Shown piece after piece: positions 2,072 to 23,382 of a stretch of DNA of 64,000 bases. Every line of letters begins with the position of its first letter. Within the stretch, counting starts at the first letter, position 1. Under the pieces are notes generated by a model that searched no databases, was not told the DNA's origin, and saw only the letters and a list, made by a program, of their open reading frames with translations. The position numbers were made by a program, and so were the translations under genes. This stretch comes from Oscillospiraceae bacterium (lineage in GTDB: Bacteria > Bacillota > Clostridia > Oscillospirales > Oscillospiraceae), in contig JAETSB010000003.1 in NCBI GenBank assembly GCA_021769865.1, forward strand, positions 1-64,000, written 5' to 3'.

Positions 2072-3202
2072 TTAACTTTCTCCAAACAGTTTTTTACATA
2101 TTGAAGCTAATACGCTTCTTTGGATTTTCGGTTCCGATGGCGAAGAGATAGAATCTTTTCTCTTCCCATTGTAATCAGGTTCAGGGTCTACAGGTTCTAC
2201 TAACTCAACGGTCATATTTGGGAACACGAACCCTTTTGCTTCCGCTTTTGAAACTAAATCTTGATATTTTATAGAATTAGAGTTTTTCATTCTCGAAAAT
2301 GCGGACATAGATTTAGGGATATCGTTAGGAATAATCTGTTTTAGTTGATAGTAGACCCTGCGTGTGATCCTATATTCTTTTTCTTTTTTAATTTTTTCAC
2401 GCCTTTTTAGATAGTTTTCTTTCTCTGTTTCGCTACGATCATCAACAAAAGGCCTCCAACTTAATTTTTCAATTGCAACATATTTATCCTTATAAAAAAT
2501 CTCTTCATCTTTTCGATATAAAATCGGGCAACCGGACGGCATTCCCTCTGGACAATACCCATCTTCTTTCATGAAGTCTGGTAGGTAAGGGAACCGTTTA
2601 TCTTTTCCAGAAATGCTATATACACGTCCTTGATACTTAGCTACAACAGCGCTTTGAGCACCGGCCCATTGGAACTCTATCAAATCGGTTCCAAGTTGCT
2701 TTGCATAATCCAATGCCCACTGGAACCGAGATATAGCAATATCCTCATATGTAGTAGAATTTTCTGCAATCCACTTTTCCCAATAGTCTACATCGTCAAA
2801 TCTGCCAAGCGCCTCAAGTTCTGAGACAATCCTATAATAGTCTTTTTCTGCCCACGAAATAGAGGAATGCGGCATTATAGTAGTTGATTTCTCTAAACAA
2901 GCAATGAGGAGGTCAGTTCTCTCCTGTTCTTTGCAATACGAACAGTGCATACGAAGGACATATTCTAAATAACCAGTAACACCAAGTTCGACCGCATCTG
3001 CCTTTTCGTCTTGAGCAAGATATTTTGGTGTGGTTATAGATAAAATTGAATCGACATTGTTTAAATCATATTGTATTCCATCGGACACTATACAAGTTGC
3101 TTTGTTTATTTCTTCCCGATAATCTCCATAAGCGCACCCTGGCTCTGGAACAACTTTTACAATTCGGCCATGCTCAAAATAAACAGTTGTATCCTTTCCC
3201 AT
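2072..3202 (-). CDS. Unknown 376-aa protein expressed with the repressor
   Basis: A large soluble protein with no recognised domain. It has a CSYCKE pair (CxxC, about residues 87-90), a Trp/Tyr-rich centre (WAEKDYYRIVSELEALGRFD; FQWALDYAKQLGTDLIEFQW), a strongly basic coiled stretch near 265-285 and a Lys/Ser/Pro-rich tail. Its base composition is clearly more A+T-rich than neighbouring genes, which suggests separate acquisition. It lies 46 bp downstream of the repressor, on the same strand, with AAAGGGG before its ATG and no terminator reading in that direction. It should therefore be made in the lysogen. That location is typical for immunity, superinfection-exclusion or lysogenic-conversion genes; this role is inference only. 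Confidence 0.75.
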   Translation of the reverse strand: MGKDTTVYFEHGRIVKVVPEPGCAYGDYREEINKATCIVSDGIQYDLNNVDSILSITTPKYLAQDEKADAVELGVTGYLEYVLRMHCSYCKEQERTDLLIACLEKSTTIMPHSSISWAEKDYYRIVSELEALGRFDDVDYWEKWIAENSTTYEDIAISRFQWALDYAKQLGTDLIEFQWAGAQSAVVAKYQGRVYSISGKDKRFPYLPDFMKEDGYCPEGMPSGCPILYRKDEEIFYKDKYVAIEKLSWRPFVDDRSETEKENYLKRREKIKKEKEYRITRRVYYQLKQIIPNDIPKSMSAFSRMKNSNSIKYQDLVSKAEAKGFVFPNMTVELVEPVDPEPDYNGKRKDSISSPSEPKIQRSVLASICKKLFGES

Positions 3203-3248
3203 TCAAGACTGCCCCTTTGTAAGCCGCTTATGGGCGGCTTTTTATTTT

Positions 3249-3647
3249 TTACACTTCTGTTGAAGCCATTCGAAACGAACCAGCTTTTTTATATTTGCCA
3301 GTGTCTTCCAAGTCGATTGCATAAGATAGAAGTTTTCCTTTTCCCTCCTCGTTCATCTCTCGGTATAGTTCAATTAATTGTTTCTCGTTTTCATCTGAAA
3401 GAGACAATAATTTGTTTTCACTTGATGTCTCCTTGGTCAATCCAGCGATAGAGTTTATCTCATATATTTTGCATAACATCAAGAACACATCTGCATCTGG
3501 TTGCCTGTGACCATTTTCCCAGCCATAAAGAGTTTTGTCAGAAATATTAACTCCTATGTTTTTCAGTTGTTCTAGTACATATTTTACAGGGAGATCAAGT
3601 TCTTTTCTCCGTGTTTTCAAGATGTTTCCAACTAAACTACTGCCCAT
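3249..3647 (-). CDS. CI-like repressor, XRE family
   Basis: A 132-residue regulator, shorter than lambda CI and without a peptidase domain. Residues about 3-65 form an XRE helix-turn-helix (GNILKTRRKELDLPVKYVLE, then NISDKTLYGWENGHRQPDAD), followed by a helical C-terminus rich in Glu/Lys. I chose the ATG preceded by AGGAGGAAGTAAT; the frame is open 28 codons further upstream, but that part runs through the promoter and operator. The promoter TTGACA-17-TATAGT lies directly upstream. It should repress the rightward early promoter and its own gene through the three operators between it and the Cro-like gene. Confidence 0.9.
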   Translation of the reverse strand: MGSSLVGNILKTRRKELDLPVKYVLEQLKNIGVNISDKTLYGWENGHRQPDADVFLMLCKIYEINSIAGLTKETSSENKLLSLSDENEKQLIELYREMNEEGKGKLLSYAIDLEDTGKYKKAGSFRMASTEV

Positions 3648-12006: not shown

Positions 12007-12257
12007 AGAATACCTTGTGCCCTACAAGCCAAGGACGAATATCTGTTTTGACTGCCAGAGGGCGTTGGGGGGGGTGTTCCTGGAGTGCGTGCCACCCTGT
12101 TACCGGGGAACCTTTGTTTCTTCCGGTTCCCGGATGGACGGCAAAACCGTCAAAGCTGTATTCTGCATCGAAGGGTCGAAAGCGGAAGACGTGGACTTAT
12201 CACATTACAGATTGCCCGCTGTTTCTTCGAGATGATGTGGGAGGGAGGAGAACGTGA
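11993..12257 (+). pseudogene. Conserved phage protein frameshifted in a G8 run
   Basis: The frame opens MAIEEYLVPYKPRTNICFDC and continues to RAL at 12067. A run of eight G (12068-12075) follows. In the frame as given the rest is poor (GVFLECVPP...). One frame over, the expected family sequence appears: GGCSWSACHPVTGEPLFLPV, then PGWTA and TYHITDCPLFLRDD, which resembles the NICFDCxRAxGGCSW...W...TYxIxxCPLF proteins of other phages. One extra G explains it. It may be a sequencing error, a real mutation or slippage-controlled expression. The corrected stop at 12257 overlaps the methylase start. Confidence 0.7.
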
Positions 12258-13123
12258 AAAATGAGGTAAGGATGACGCATTTATCGCTGTTCAGCGGAAT
12301 CGGGGGGCTGGACCTTGCGGCGGAATGGACCGGTTTTCAGACGGTGGGCCAGTGCGAGTGGGCGGACTACCCGGCAAAGGTATTGGAAAAACACTGGCCA
12401 GATGTGCCCCGCTGGAGAGATATCCGGACACTGACAAAGGAGACCTTTTATGAGCGGACAGGATTGCGAACAGTTGACGTTATTTCCGGCGGATTCCCCT
12501 GCCAGCCGTTCAGCGTTGCCGGGAAGCGAAGAGGCATTGAAGATGACCGTTACCTCTGGCCGGAAATGCTTAGAGTTATCCAAGAACTGCGGCCCGCTTG
12601 GGTTGTTGGAGAAAATGTTGCTGGAATCGTCAGTATGGCGCTCGACCAGGTGTTTTTTGACCTGGAAAGCATCGGCTACGAAACAAGGGCGTTTGTATTT
12701 CCGGCTTGTGCCGTCGATGCCCCGCACCGGCGGGATCGGTGCGCCATTGTGGCCTACTCCAAAAGCAACAGACTGCAAGGGTTCGGGGCCGCCTGGGCGC
12801 AGGAGCGCGGAACACGATCGGGAAAAACGGAATTTAAAGGGTTACATCATGTACCCGACGCCCACGACGGGGGCGGGGCTCTGCGGAGGGACGGGGAACT
12901 ATCGGCAGCTCAAGGCCCTGGAGGAATCCGGCCAGATTACGGAGGAGGAACGCCAGAGTATGGCGGCTGGGAATGGTGGCCAGCTGAACCCGACGTGGGT
13001 CGAGTGGCTCATGGGATTCCCTCTCGGGTGGACCGACTTAAATGTCTCGGAAACTCCGTAGTGCCCCAGCAGTTTTACCCGGTGTTCCGGGCGATAGCGG
13101 AAATTGAAAGGACAATGACATGA
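12254..13123 (+). CDS. DNA (cytosine-5) methyltransferase
   Basis: 289 residues with the C5-methylase motifs in order: I (SLFSGIGGLDLAAEW, about 11-25, SAM binding), IV (GGFPCQPFSVAG, catalytic Cys83), VI (VGENVAG, about 118-124), VIII (HRRDRCAIVAY) and X (RLKCLGNSVVPQQFYP, about 258-273). The region between VIII and X (target recognition) is Gly/Arg-rich and low in complexity because a second gene uses the same DNA in another frame (12450-13061). No restriction gene is nearby, so it is an orphan phage methylase, probably protecting phage DNA. GTG start after GGGAGGAGAAC. Confidence 0.93.
   Translation: MKNEVRMTHLSLFSGIGGLDLAAEWTGFQTVGQCEWADYPAKVLEKHWPDVPRWRDIRTLTKETFYERTGLRTVDVISGGFPCQPFSVAGKRRGIEDDRYLWPEMLRVIQELRPAWVVGENVAGIVSMALDQVFFDLESIGYETRAFVFPACAVDAPHRRDRCAIVAYSKSNRLQGFGAAWAQERGTRSGKTEFKGLHHVPDAHDGGGALRRDGELSAAQGPGGIRPDYGGGTPEYGGWEWWPAEPDVGRVAHGIPSRVDRLKCLGNSVVPQQFYPVFRAIAEIERTMT
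12450..13061 (+). CDS. Gene nested within the methylase in another frame, 203 aa
   Basis: An ORF entirely inside the methylase gene with its own ideal ribosome binding site (AAAGGAG, seven bases, ATG). The product looks like a true protein: MSGQDCEQLTLFPADSPASR, then SKNCGPLGLLEKMLLESSVW, RSTRCFLTWKASATKQGRLY, FRLVPSMPRTGGIG, LWPTPKATDCKGSG and a C-terminal NPTWVEWLMGFPLGWTDL. Proteins with the LWPTP...WVEWLMG(F/W)P(L/I)GWT layout are known beside or fused to phage Dcm genes. The WVEWLMGFP motif shares bases with the methylase's GRVAHGIPSRVDRLK motif. Function unknown; perhaps a methylase partner or specificity factor. Confidence 0.7.
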   Translation: MSGQDCEQLTLFPADSPASRSALPGSEEALKMTVTSGRKCLELSKNCGPLGLLEKMLLESSVWRSTRCFLTWKASATKQGRLYFRLVPSMPRTGGIGAPLWPTPKATDCKGSGPPGRRSAEHDREKRNLKGYIMYPTPTTGAGLCGGTGNYRQLKALEESGQITEEERQSMAAGNGGQLNPTWVEWLMGFPLGWTDLNVSETP

Positions 13124-14070
13124 AAAAATATGAGTTTACAGGCGAAACGAAGACCATCGGAGGCATAGTCCTGAAGAGGATACGCGCCTTAAAGGAATTT
13201 TGTGGAGTCTCCGCCGGAGACATTGGCGGGTGGATTGAGAAGGAAAGCAATTTGAGCCAAGACGGCGATGCCATGGTCTACGGCGATGCCATGGTCTACG
13301 GCGATGCCAGGGTCTACGGCAATGCCAGGGTCTACGGCAATGCCTGGGTCTACGGCAATGCCTGGGTCTACGGCGATGCCATGGTCTACGGCGATGCCAG
13401 GGTCTCCGGCAATGCCAGGGTCTACGGCGATGCCAGGGTCTACGGCAATGCCTGGGTCTACGGCAATGCCTGGGTCTACGGCAATGCCTGGGTCTACGGC
13501 AATGCCAGGGTCTACGGCAATGCCAGGGTCTCCGGCGATGCCAGGGTCTACGGCAATGCCAGGGTCTCCGGCGATGCCATGGTCTACGGCAATGCCTGGG
13601 TCTACGGCAATGCCAGGGTCTCCGGCAATGCCAGGGTCTACGGCGATGCCATGGTCTACGGCAATGCCTGGGTCTACGGCGATGCCAGGGTCTACGGCAA
13701 TGCCTGGGTCTACGGCAATGCCAGGGTCTACGGCAATGCCTGGGTCTACGGAGGACGATGGAAAACATCTCCTTGTTACATCCAGGGATCAAAGTGGTCG
13801 GTTAATGTCTCATCTCCCGATACGGTACAATGCGGCTGCCAAGGCCACACTTGGCGAGAGTGGCACGACAAATATCTGGAAATCAGCCGGGAGCATGACG
13901 CGGGGGATGTGCTGGAGGAGTATATCCGGTATTTTAACCTGCTGTGCGATATGTACGGCCATGAGGATTGCAAGATTTTGGACTATGGCAAGATCGTCTT
14001 TCTGCCCAGCGAAGAAGCCGAGGCGGCGCTGAAAAAGAGGGAGGAGGCAGACAATGAGGCAAAGCCCTGA
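13120..14070 (+). CDS. Left-handed beta-helix-like hexapeptide-repeat protein, 316 aa
   Basis: Residues 1-45 are a conserved head (KKYEFTGETKTIGGIVLKRI, then GDIGGWIEKESNLSQDGDA). About 27 units of V(Y/S)G(N/D)A(R/W/M) follow, matching the left-handed beta-helix rule (aliphatic at position 1, small at 5). A C-terminal domain of about 100 residues includes CGCQGHTWREWHDKYLEISR. The head plus NA(R/W)VYG array is a known family in gut phages, sometimes annotated as a hexapeptide transferase, but no catalytic part is visible. Role unknown. ATGA overlap with the methylase. Confidence 0.85.
   Translation: MKKYEFTGETKTIGGIVLKRIRALKEFCGVSAGDIGGWIEKESNLSQDGDAMVYGDAMVYGDARVYGNARVYGNAWVYGNAWVYGDAMVYGDARVSGNARVYGDARVYGNAWVYGNAWVYGNAWVYGNARVYGNARVSGDARVYGNARVSGDAMVYGNAWVYGNARVSGNARVYGDAMVYGNAWVYGDARVYGNAWVYGNARVYGNAWVYGGRWKTSPCYIQGSKWSVNVSSPDTVQCGCQGHTWREWHDKYLEISREHDAGDVLEEYIRYFNLLCDMYGHEDCKILDYGKIVFLPSEEAEAALKKREEADNEAKP
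13261..13751 (+). repeat. 18-bp coding tandem repeat array
   Basis: About 27 abutting 18-bp units (GGCAATGCCAGGGTCTAC and variants differing at three positions: AAT/GAT, AGG/TGG/ATG, TAC/TCC). Near identity between units points to recent expansion by slippage or unequal recombination. This is the second such array in the prophage with an unrelated unit sequence. Confidence 0.9.
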
Positions 14071-22544: not shown

Positions 22545-22636
22545 GCGGAGGTCCGGTCCTGGCTGCTGAATGAGGACTACGAGACCGCCAAAGCGCGGGT
22601 TGAACAGATTGCGGAGGAGAGCGGGGCAGATTATCT
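22545..22636 (+). repeat. Exact 92-bp duplicate of the portal 3' end
   Basis: Identical base for base to 21997-22088 (GCGGAGGTCC...GATTATCT). After 22636 it continues with a different portal C-terminus (LEEEERERETVSR, stop) rather than that of the portal gene present here. It is therefore a remnant of another portal allele, left of the adenine methylase. Confidence 0.9.
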
Positions 22637-22650
22637 GGAGGAGGAAGAGC

Positions 22651-23382
22651 GTGAGCGTGAGACTGTTTCAAGGTGACTGCCTAGAGCTGATGAAGGACAT
22701 CCCAGACGGTAGCGTGGACATGGTGCTGGCTGACCCGCCCTATTCGTCTGGTGGCATGTACCGAAGCGACAGGGCAAACGGTTCAAGCCTAAAATATCAA
22801 AGCAGCGACACGAAGGACATTAAACCGGATTTCGCCGGAGACAACAGAGACCAGCGCAGCTTTACTCTATGGGAAACATTCTGGATTTCTTCAGCGCATC
22901 GGACAATGAAGCCTGGTGCAATTGCAATTGTGTTCACAGACTGGCGGCAACTTGCGGCAACCATAGACGCAGTTCAGTGCGGAGGCCTTGTTTACAGGGG
23001 CGTTATTCCGTGGATAAAACCCGCTGCAAGGCCGCAAAAAGGGCGCTTTACGCAAAACGCCGAGTACTGCGTGTGGGCATCGAATGGAAATATACCAAAC
23101 GAGGGTGGAAACTACAAAGGATTTTACACTTGCAATCCGCCTATCACGAAAAAGCGGATTCACGCAACAGAAAAACCGATAGAGTTGCTCGAACACCTCA
23201 TGGCGATTTGCCCCGCTGGCGGCACCGTGCTTGACCCGTTTATGGGGAGTGGCTCTACGGGCGTTGCGGCAGTCAACACGGGCCGGAACTTCATCGGGAT
23301 GGAGTTAGACATCGGCTATTTTGAAGCGGCCAAACGGCGCATTGAGGAAGCTAAGGAACAATTGAGGATTGTTGAAGTATGA
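22651..23382 (+). CDS. DNA N6-adenine methyltransferase (DPPY type)
   Basis: 243 residues, GTG start after GGAGGAGGAAGAGC. The catalytic DPPY (DMVLADPPYSSGG, about 26-38) comes before the SAM motif (GTVLDPFMGSGSTGVAAVNT, about 197-216), with FIGMELD after it: the beta-class order with recognition domain between. HATEKPIELLEHLM is also conserved. It overlaps the minor capsid gene by ATGA. An orphan phage methylase; the target is unknown. It sits in a cargo position between head genes and next to a duplication scar, so it was probably brought in with that exchange. Confidence 0.92.
   Translation: MSVRLFQGDCLELMKDIPDGSVDMVLADPPYSSGGMYRSDRANGSSLKYQSSDTKDIKPDFAGDNRDQRSFTLWETFWISSAHRTMKPGAIAIVFTDWRQLAATIDAVQCGGLVYRGVIPWIKPAARPQKGRFTQNAEYCVWASNGNIPNEGGNYKGFYTCNPPITKKRIHATEKPIELLEHLMAICPAGGTVLDPFMGSGSTGVAAVNTGRNFIGMELDIGYFEAAKRRIEEAKEQLRIVEV

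Follow-up and report, generated by a model that had tools for sequence, protein, structure and literature searches.

What is encoded by a 203-codon open reading frame (ORF) that lies entirely within the gene for a cytosine-5 DNA methyltransferase, on the same strand but in another frame? The question is raised by a 64,000-nucleotide stretch of the genome of an Oscillospiraceae bacterium (contig JAETSB010000003.1, positions 1 to 64,000; hereafter, the window), in which the methyltransferase gene alpha (GTG start, 289 codons, with an alternative in-frame ATG at 12272) encloses the frame beta (ATG start, +1 relative to alpha). The first-pass annotation, made from the sequence alone, had noticed this inner ORF and the AAAGGAG seven bases before its ATG, had placed motifs I, IV, VI, VIII, and X in the methylase frame and conserved blocks in the nested one, and had judged that both products look real; we found all these elements at the places indicated (Table 1), and the judgment holds, in that both frames are selected as protein, the inner start is selected, and the pairing is conserved among relatives. 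Also borne out is the remark that two conserved motifs use the same bases: the alpha EPDVGRVAHGIPSRVDRLK (12986–13042) and the beta NPTWVEWLMGFPLGWTDL share 12987–13040, just as the bases of the alpha motif IV also code for beta in the +1 frame. We consider it highly probable that the two frames together specify a single, split cytosine-5 DNA methyltransferase, to which beta brings the target-recognition region and motif IX.

The comparison of synonymous and nonsynonymous change among homologues in both frames, which check the first-pass annotation had proposed, was based on 221 canonical loci—the beta stop being located within alpha in 217 and at most 16 bases beyond in 4—that yielded 195 unique loci and from these 76 independent sister pairs with an alpha identity of 0.60–0.97, each locus being used once. 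Substitutions were classed by their effect in both frames where the remainder of both codons was identical, with stops excluded. Upstream of beta, the third-position divergence was 0.42 and the beta-frame ratio 1.40 (confidence interval, CI, 0.97–2.25); there alpha evolves like an ordinary gene. Within the overlap, the third-position divergence and the beta-frame ratio were 0.22 and 0.30 (0.22–0.43) at 12456–12600, 0.21 and 0.24 (0.18–0.31) at 12601–12760, 0.31 and 0.17 (0.12–0.22) at 12761–12975, and 0.11 and 0.10 (0.05–0.16) at 12976–13043; alpha-silent changes altering beta were reduced 2 to 9 fold within the overlap. For these four parts the dN-type ratios of alpha were 0.07, 0.11, 0.83 (0.59–1.11), and 0.26 (0.12–0.50). 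Both frames are therefore constrained over motifs IV–VIII and IX/X, and the middle is constrained in beta only. The 31 pairs that contain the window, which are not independent, concur (beta 0.40, 0.15, 0.34, and 0.19; alpha middle 0.87). Downstream of beta the changes were few, with a ratio of 0.52 (CI 0.25–1.14) in the 76 pairs and a single nonsynonymous change in total in the window pairs, and we place no weight on these ratios. Both frames are thus under purifying selection as protein, and the alpha stretch from VIII to X is an open shadow of the beta frame, devoid of amino-acid selection and open to reach motif X. That stretch had been described beforehand as rich in Gly and Arg, as if the nested gene set its sequence; the enrichment persists over the 195 relatives (12.9% G and 9.8% R, against 10.1% and 6.5% for the N-terminal part), and the nested gene does dictate the sequence there, as the unconstrained alpha ratio shows.

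The match of alpha to PF00145 (E 3.1e-40) is confined to residues 7–175 and that to the NCBIfam dcm model to residues 10–187; P82 C83 Q84 and E120 N121 V122 are invariant in 36 aligned sequences, and alpha possesses motifs I–VIII with PCQ and ENV along with the large-domain fold with motif X that define the family, but its own chain lacks the target-recognition region and motif IX that one-chain members have as well. Residues 176–264 are predicted to be disordered, alpha being thus modeled without an ordered small domain. The end of the Pfam match at residue 175, the disorder that follows, and the unselected middle together argue for a split rather than a one-chain enzyme. Beta, for its part, matched phrog_1008 ("DNA methyltransferase," E 1e-37) and no Pfam family. 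The same profile weakly matched the alpha motif X (residues 257–274 on profile positions 293–310, E 0.06), as would be expected if some relatives had the beta part and X in one chain. The beta block NPTWVEWLMGFPLGWTDL lies on the DNA just before motif X, as motif IX would, and we call it motif-IX-like on the grounds of that position, its pattern, and a weak profile match when aligned to motif IX of the one-chain enzymes (E 0.15).

Table 1. Parts of the alpha/beta gene pair in the window.
Feature	Position	Strand	Basis
Alpha, cytosine-5 DNA methyltransferase large subunit (motifs I–VIII and X)	12254..13123	+	PF00145 match
Alpha motif I (LSLFSGIGGLDLA)	12281..12319	+	alignment
AAAGGAG, ribosome-binding site for the internal start of beta, ending 7 bases before the ATG	12436..12442	+	
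Beta, nested putative small subunit (N-terminal domain, target-recognition region, motif IX)	12450..13061	+	phrog_1008, selection
Alpha motif IV with PCQ (VISGGFPCQPFSVAGKRRG)	12479..12535	+	alignment
Alpha motif VI (VVGENVAG)	12602..12625	+	alignment
Beta predicted beta-hairpin (TRCFLTWKASATKQGRLYFRLV)	12645..12710	+	among confident parts of beta structure model
Alpha motif VIII (RRDR)	12728..12739	+	alignment
Beta block LWPTPKATDCKGSG	12747..12788	+	
Beta putative target-recognition region (the MYPTP block with its neighbours); read in the alpha frame, a linker predicted to be disordered, open yet unconserved	12761..12975	+	selection, alpha model
Beta motif-IX-like block NPTWVEWLMGFPLGWTDL	12987..13040	+	
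Alpha motif X (RLKCLGNSVVPQQF)	13034..13075	+	alignment, model

One-chain cytosine-5 methyltransferases carry motifs I–VIII, the recognition region, IX, and X in that order; 11 of them were aligned. The DNA of the present locus would keep this order, with the recognition region and IX being read in the +1 frame and X back in the alpha frame. Alpha would be the catalytic, S-adenosylmethionine-binding large domain, comprising I–VIII and then X; beta would be a separate protein, initiated at its own ribosome-binding site inside alpha, that supplies the small domain—the recognition region plus motif IX—while its N-terminal domain may dock on alpha. Beta is presumed to be made and to bind alpha, and the two chains would associate into an active prophage methylase of the orphan type, with sequence specificity. 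The middle of beta probably reads the DNA target; the stretch located between VIII and X in one-chain enzymes lies, in this locus, in the beta frame. Such an enzyme might mark the phage DNA against host restriction, or regulate that DNA.

Three other explanations of beta were considered. The likeliest of them, which we nevertheless regard as improbable, is that beta constitutes a separate anti-restriction or regulatory effector and that the target-recognition domain is to be found in alpha only, between VIII and X. This arrangement is the one published for M.EcoHK31I, a methyltransferase of E. coli (YGGCCR) made of two polypeptides, the large with I–VIII and X and the small with IX, whose predicted target-recognition domain is placed in the large subunit (PMC3404938). 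Furthermore, the searches, which included Pfam matching of 57 betas, turned up no relative of the additional N-terminal domain of beta. In the present pair, by contrast, selection and modeling assign the recognition region to the small chain: the alpha segment VIII–X is predicted to be disordered and is unselected exactly where beta is selected. Of the earlier guess of a specificity or anti-restriction partner, then, the specificity part is supported by the recognition region of beta, and a separate anti-restriction role is unneeded.

A second explanation, that ribosomes translating alpha shift into the inner frame and so produce an alpha–beta fusion, draws on the existence of relatives whose motif X or final IX lies in a different frame (L070, L216, L427), and we hold it to be very improbable in view of the inner start. 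We considered the 56 loci—not independent of each other—in which alpha reads T.E.[FL]Y at the beta start, where the Tyr codon gives an ATG only if it is TAT: this codon was TAT in 56/56, against 28/61 for Tyr codons farther upstream in these alphas (Fisher 1.4e-12), and the Glu codon within the ribosome site was GAG in 54/56, against 96/224 in the comparison (5.5e-15, with the same dependence among loci). In a non-redundant set of 125 betas, the start codon closest to the expected position was ATG in 105, TTG in 18, and GTG in 2, and a ribosome-site-like word of at least 4 bases was present in 98, a count without a chance control. The beta start and its ribosome site are selected; the codon choice in the outer gene preserves both, which favors internal initiation, and on that basis the frameshift fusion was rejected.

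The weakest of the three is the notion that the beta ORF is a product-less shadow of conserved methylase codons. The N-terminal blocks of beta overlie the alpha motifs IV–VIII, so that the alpha codons give beta some conservation, and long open runs do occur in other PF00145 genes. In a control consisting of PF00145 ORFs of at least 250 amino acids, sought in 39 relatives as well as in the window's genome (46 places, of which 30 were examined as loci), the longest +1 open run in the 20 distinct ORFs besides alpha was 43–170 codons, compared with 208 here, while one of 629 codons (L355) had a +2 run of 211. The N-terminal part of the beta profile was matched in none of the 20; one (L347) weakly matched its last part. 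A shadow, however, would not suppress alpha-silent, beta-altering changes to the extent observed, nor would it have a selected start and ribosome site. Moreover, when the alpha protein was held fixed and its synonymous codons were resampled in 20,000 runs per codon model, the 203-codon beta stretch was open in a fraction of 0.00185 with the codon usage of 12 window ORFs and of 0.00005 with a within-gene shuffle; a +1 run of at least 203 codons anywhere in the alpha gene arose in 0.0068 and 0.0009, respectively. We find the shadow barely credible. Beta is no chance ORF, which candidate these simulations, along with the conservation and the selection in both frames, led us to reject. A homing element was likewise rejected: in the ShiLan type, as described in PMC11855218, a hidden HNH endonuclease gene similarly occupies an overlapping frame within a phage DNA methylase gene, but as a homing insertion, whereas beta overlies conserved methylase motifs, and the Pfam matches of the 57 betas, taken up to an E of 1, include no HNH family.

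Relatives were gathered by scans of viral contigs with beta (best 80 of 595 confirmed relatives), alpha (best 80 of 491), and an alpha alignment (best 80 of 587), and of genome contigs with a beta alignment (best 80 of 355), which retention of the best 80 per scan favors near relatives. The alpha-fetched set comprised 156 loci—80 by alpha plus 76 new by the alpha alignment—with 149 distinct sequences. Defining an intact beta as the N-domain and motif IX within one +1 ORF, we found it in 147/156; motif X was in the alpha frame in 133 of these 147, and the beta stop was within alpha in 133, the other 14 extending 1–670 bases beyond alpha. The remaining loci were two in which the last IX was in a different frame (L363, L422), three whose stretch ended early (L127, L134, L438), two in which neither IX nor X was recognised (L148, L156), and two, L104 and L130, in which alpha with X was intact and beta was broken by the same TAG after the N-domain. 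A second frame broken without loss of the methylase, the outcome that the first-pass annotation had named as refuting its proposal, was thus encountered, though rarely, in these 2 of the 156 loci, which are mutually related (93% identity across the first 546 bases).

The 80 genome-contig loci, fetched with beta and hence biased towards having it, showed the canonical layout in 75. Of the other five, L189 and L199 had two IX copies and shifted ends, L206 yielded no X, L216 carried its X in the beta frame, and in L239 an N-domain was not recognised. The titles of the canonical loci include Bacillota, Desulforhopalus, Alphaproteobacteria, Acidobacteria, Chlorobiota, Bacteroidetes, Coriobacteriia, Treponema, Opitutae, and Chitinispirillales, which we count as ten bacterial phyla, many of the records being metagenome bins. 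A profile scan also located the overlapping pair in annotated records of phages, plasmids, or prophages from Paenibacillus, Lacticaseibacillus, Lactobacillus, Escherichia, Pseudomonas, Salmonella, Klebsiella, Vibrio, Rhodoplanes, and Enterobacter; a Bacteroides plasmid has an interrupted alpha, and in the Mycobacterium phage Llama the chain is cut at another place. In L070, L216, and L427 motif X is in the beta frame, from which it seems that X can pass from one chain to the other through a small indel in the interval after IX. The overlapping pair is the arrangement usually met in a large phage subfamily. The dual coding that the first-pass annotation had called rare is real, but is not peculiar to the present phage, and it has in M.EcoHK31I a precedent, established by experiment, that the annotation did not name.

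Individual relatives presented features of their own. The TAG of L104 (1556–1558) and L130 (2943–2945) lies between the N-domain and the recognition region, both of which still match the beta profile, with decay, recoding, or a three-part enzyme as candidate readings. On the Rhodoplanes plasmid (L172:1036–2754) no stop separates the beta frame from the gene annotated next to it, which encodes a site-specific DNA methyltransferase (1858–2757) and to which beta may be fused. Five loci with identical match statistics (L225–L229) lie in one uncultured Roseovarius chromosome (OX638333.1), as if they were five related prophages. In Treponema, the beta N-domain of L239 was not recognised, and the alpha match of L241 spans about 424 residues, being stretched by a long region opposite beta. 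In E. coli EC20 (L441:2363–3532) RefSeq has two partial pseudogenes, nearly all of which are covered by a single ORF (2318–3529) that the +1 beta ORF overlaps.

By its layout as described, the pair fits the M.EcoHK31I kind: a two-chain cytosine-5 methyltransferase whose large chain has I–VIII and X, and whose second, conserved polypeptide is encoded together with the large one, as is the case here at the sequence level. The small M.EcoHK31I gene was reportedly found, by Lee et al. in 1995, to be nested in another frame of the large gene. The likeness is one of layout; no record named M.EcoHK31I appeared among the matches listed. The present pair differs in residing in a prophage, and the scan of the neighbouring proteins brought up no recognisable restriction gene. 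The naturally split M.AquI (CYCGRG) differs in having IX and X in the small subunit (PMC3404938), while in the window X is in the alpha frame; L070 and L216 are nearer to that split. The same nested pair, with both frames annotated by the submitters, is present in the Paenibacillus phage Shelly ("g55 internal gene") and in the Escherichia phage K1ind1 (ORF28/ORF29), where the annotation stands alone, with no demonstrated function. Lambda Rz/Rz1, a phage gene embedded whole in the +1 register of another (PMC4936722), involves unrelated lysis proteins.

A subgroup of the relatives carries two copies of motif IX. Among 290 unique loci not fetched by repeat pattern, 259 had one copy, 7 none, and 24 two (L017, L101, L108–L110, L112–L114, L116, L124, L141, L144, L147, L149–L151, L153, L155, L158, L162, L163, L189, L199, and L406). 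A repeat between the beta N-domain and X—a dinucleotide of at least 5 units or a run of at least 8, in the form of AG, AC/CA, or poly-G—was present in 22/24 two-IX against 8/259 one-IX loci (Fisher 4.5e-24; loci not independent), and motif X was in the alpha frame in 11/24 (the others, 7 and 6, in the remaining frames) against 252/259. For seven poly-G loci, whose flanks are similar in part, tract length and frame agree: G9 is in phase (L110, L116, L305), G8 in one shifted frame (L151, L163, L189), and G10 in the other (L308), L305 and L308 having been fetched by the repeat pattern. The misfits are L284 (G9, shifted) and, with other flanks, L113 (G8) and L124 (G10), both in phase; in the (AG)n group the flanks differ and the repeat number could not be linked to the frame. 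These tracts point to an apparent phase variation of the overlapping gene pair, as seen between relatives and not within one phage population. The window locus itself has a single IX and no such repeat.

The neighbours of the pair form a prophage replication module, with YqaJ, RecT, SSB, and a DnaD-like replication initiation protein upstream and a solenoid protein and a Holliday-junction resolvase downstream. The YdcK-type beta-solenoid gene (13120–14070) contains 27 copies of an 18-base repeat (13262–13751) and two more open frames, of 254 amino acids on the plus and 218 on the minus strand, which are probably a repeat artefact. Farther along, at 22570–23382, a second DNA methyltransferase gene (phrog_67) directly precedes that of a minor head protein, downstream of the large terminase.

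Bacteria and their phages are known to have only a few long same-strand overlaps in which both frames are conserved. The finding bears on annotation: of 11 annotated records with alpha and an overlapping +1 beta by profile scan, 2 (L002, L165) annotate beta, although 31 of 60 among the matches listed, all from Paenibacillus larvae phages, have two annotated features under the match. Since the products look like halves of one enzyme, the overlap is open to a simple methylation assay in which one synonymous change in alpha should remove beta, and which would settle which chain carries the target specificity in the M.EcoHK31I class, a class used as a split scaffold for targeted methylation (PMC3439449). 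We incline, if only slightly, to a wider proposal: that the whole phage methylase subfamily is dual-coded wherever it has spread (across the titles of ten phyla), with a large-chain linker that is meaningless, a shadow of the recognition domain of the partner, and open only for motif X, and that in the two-IX subgroup slippage at AG, AC, or poly-G tracts switches which of the three frames carries the last IX and X, thus rewiring both subunits in a three-state contingency locus. If the repeat-bearing relatives do switch in vivo, a contingency mechanism would there affect two genes simultaneously.
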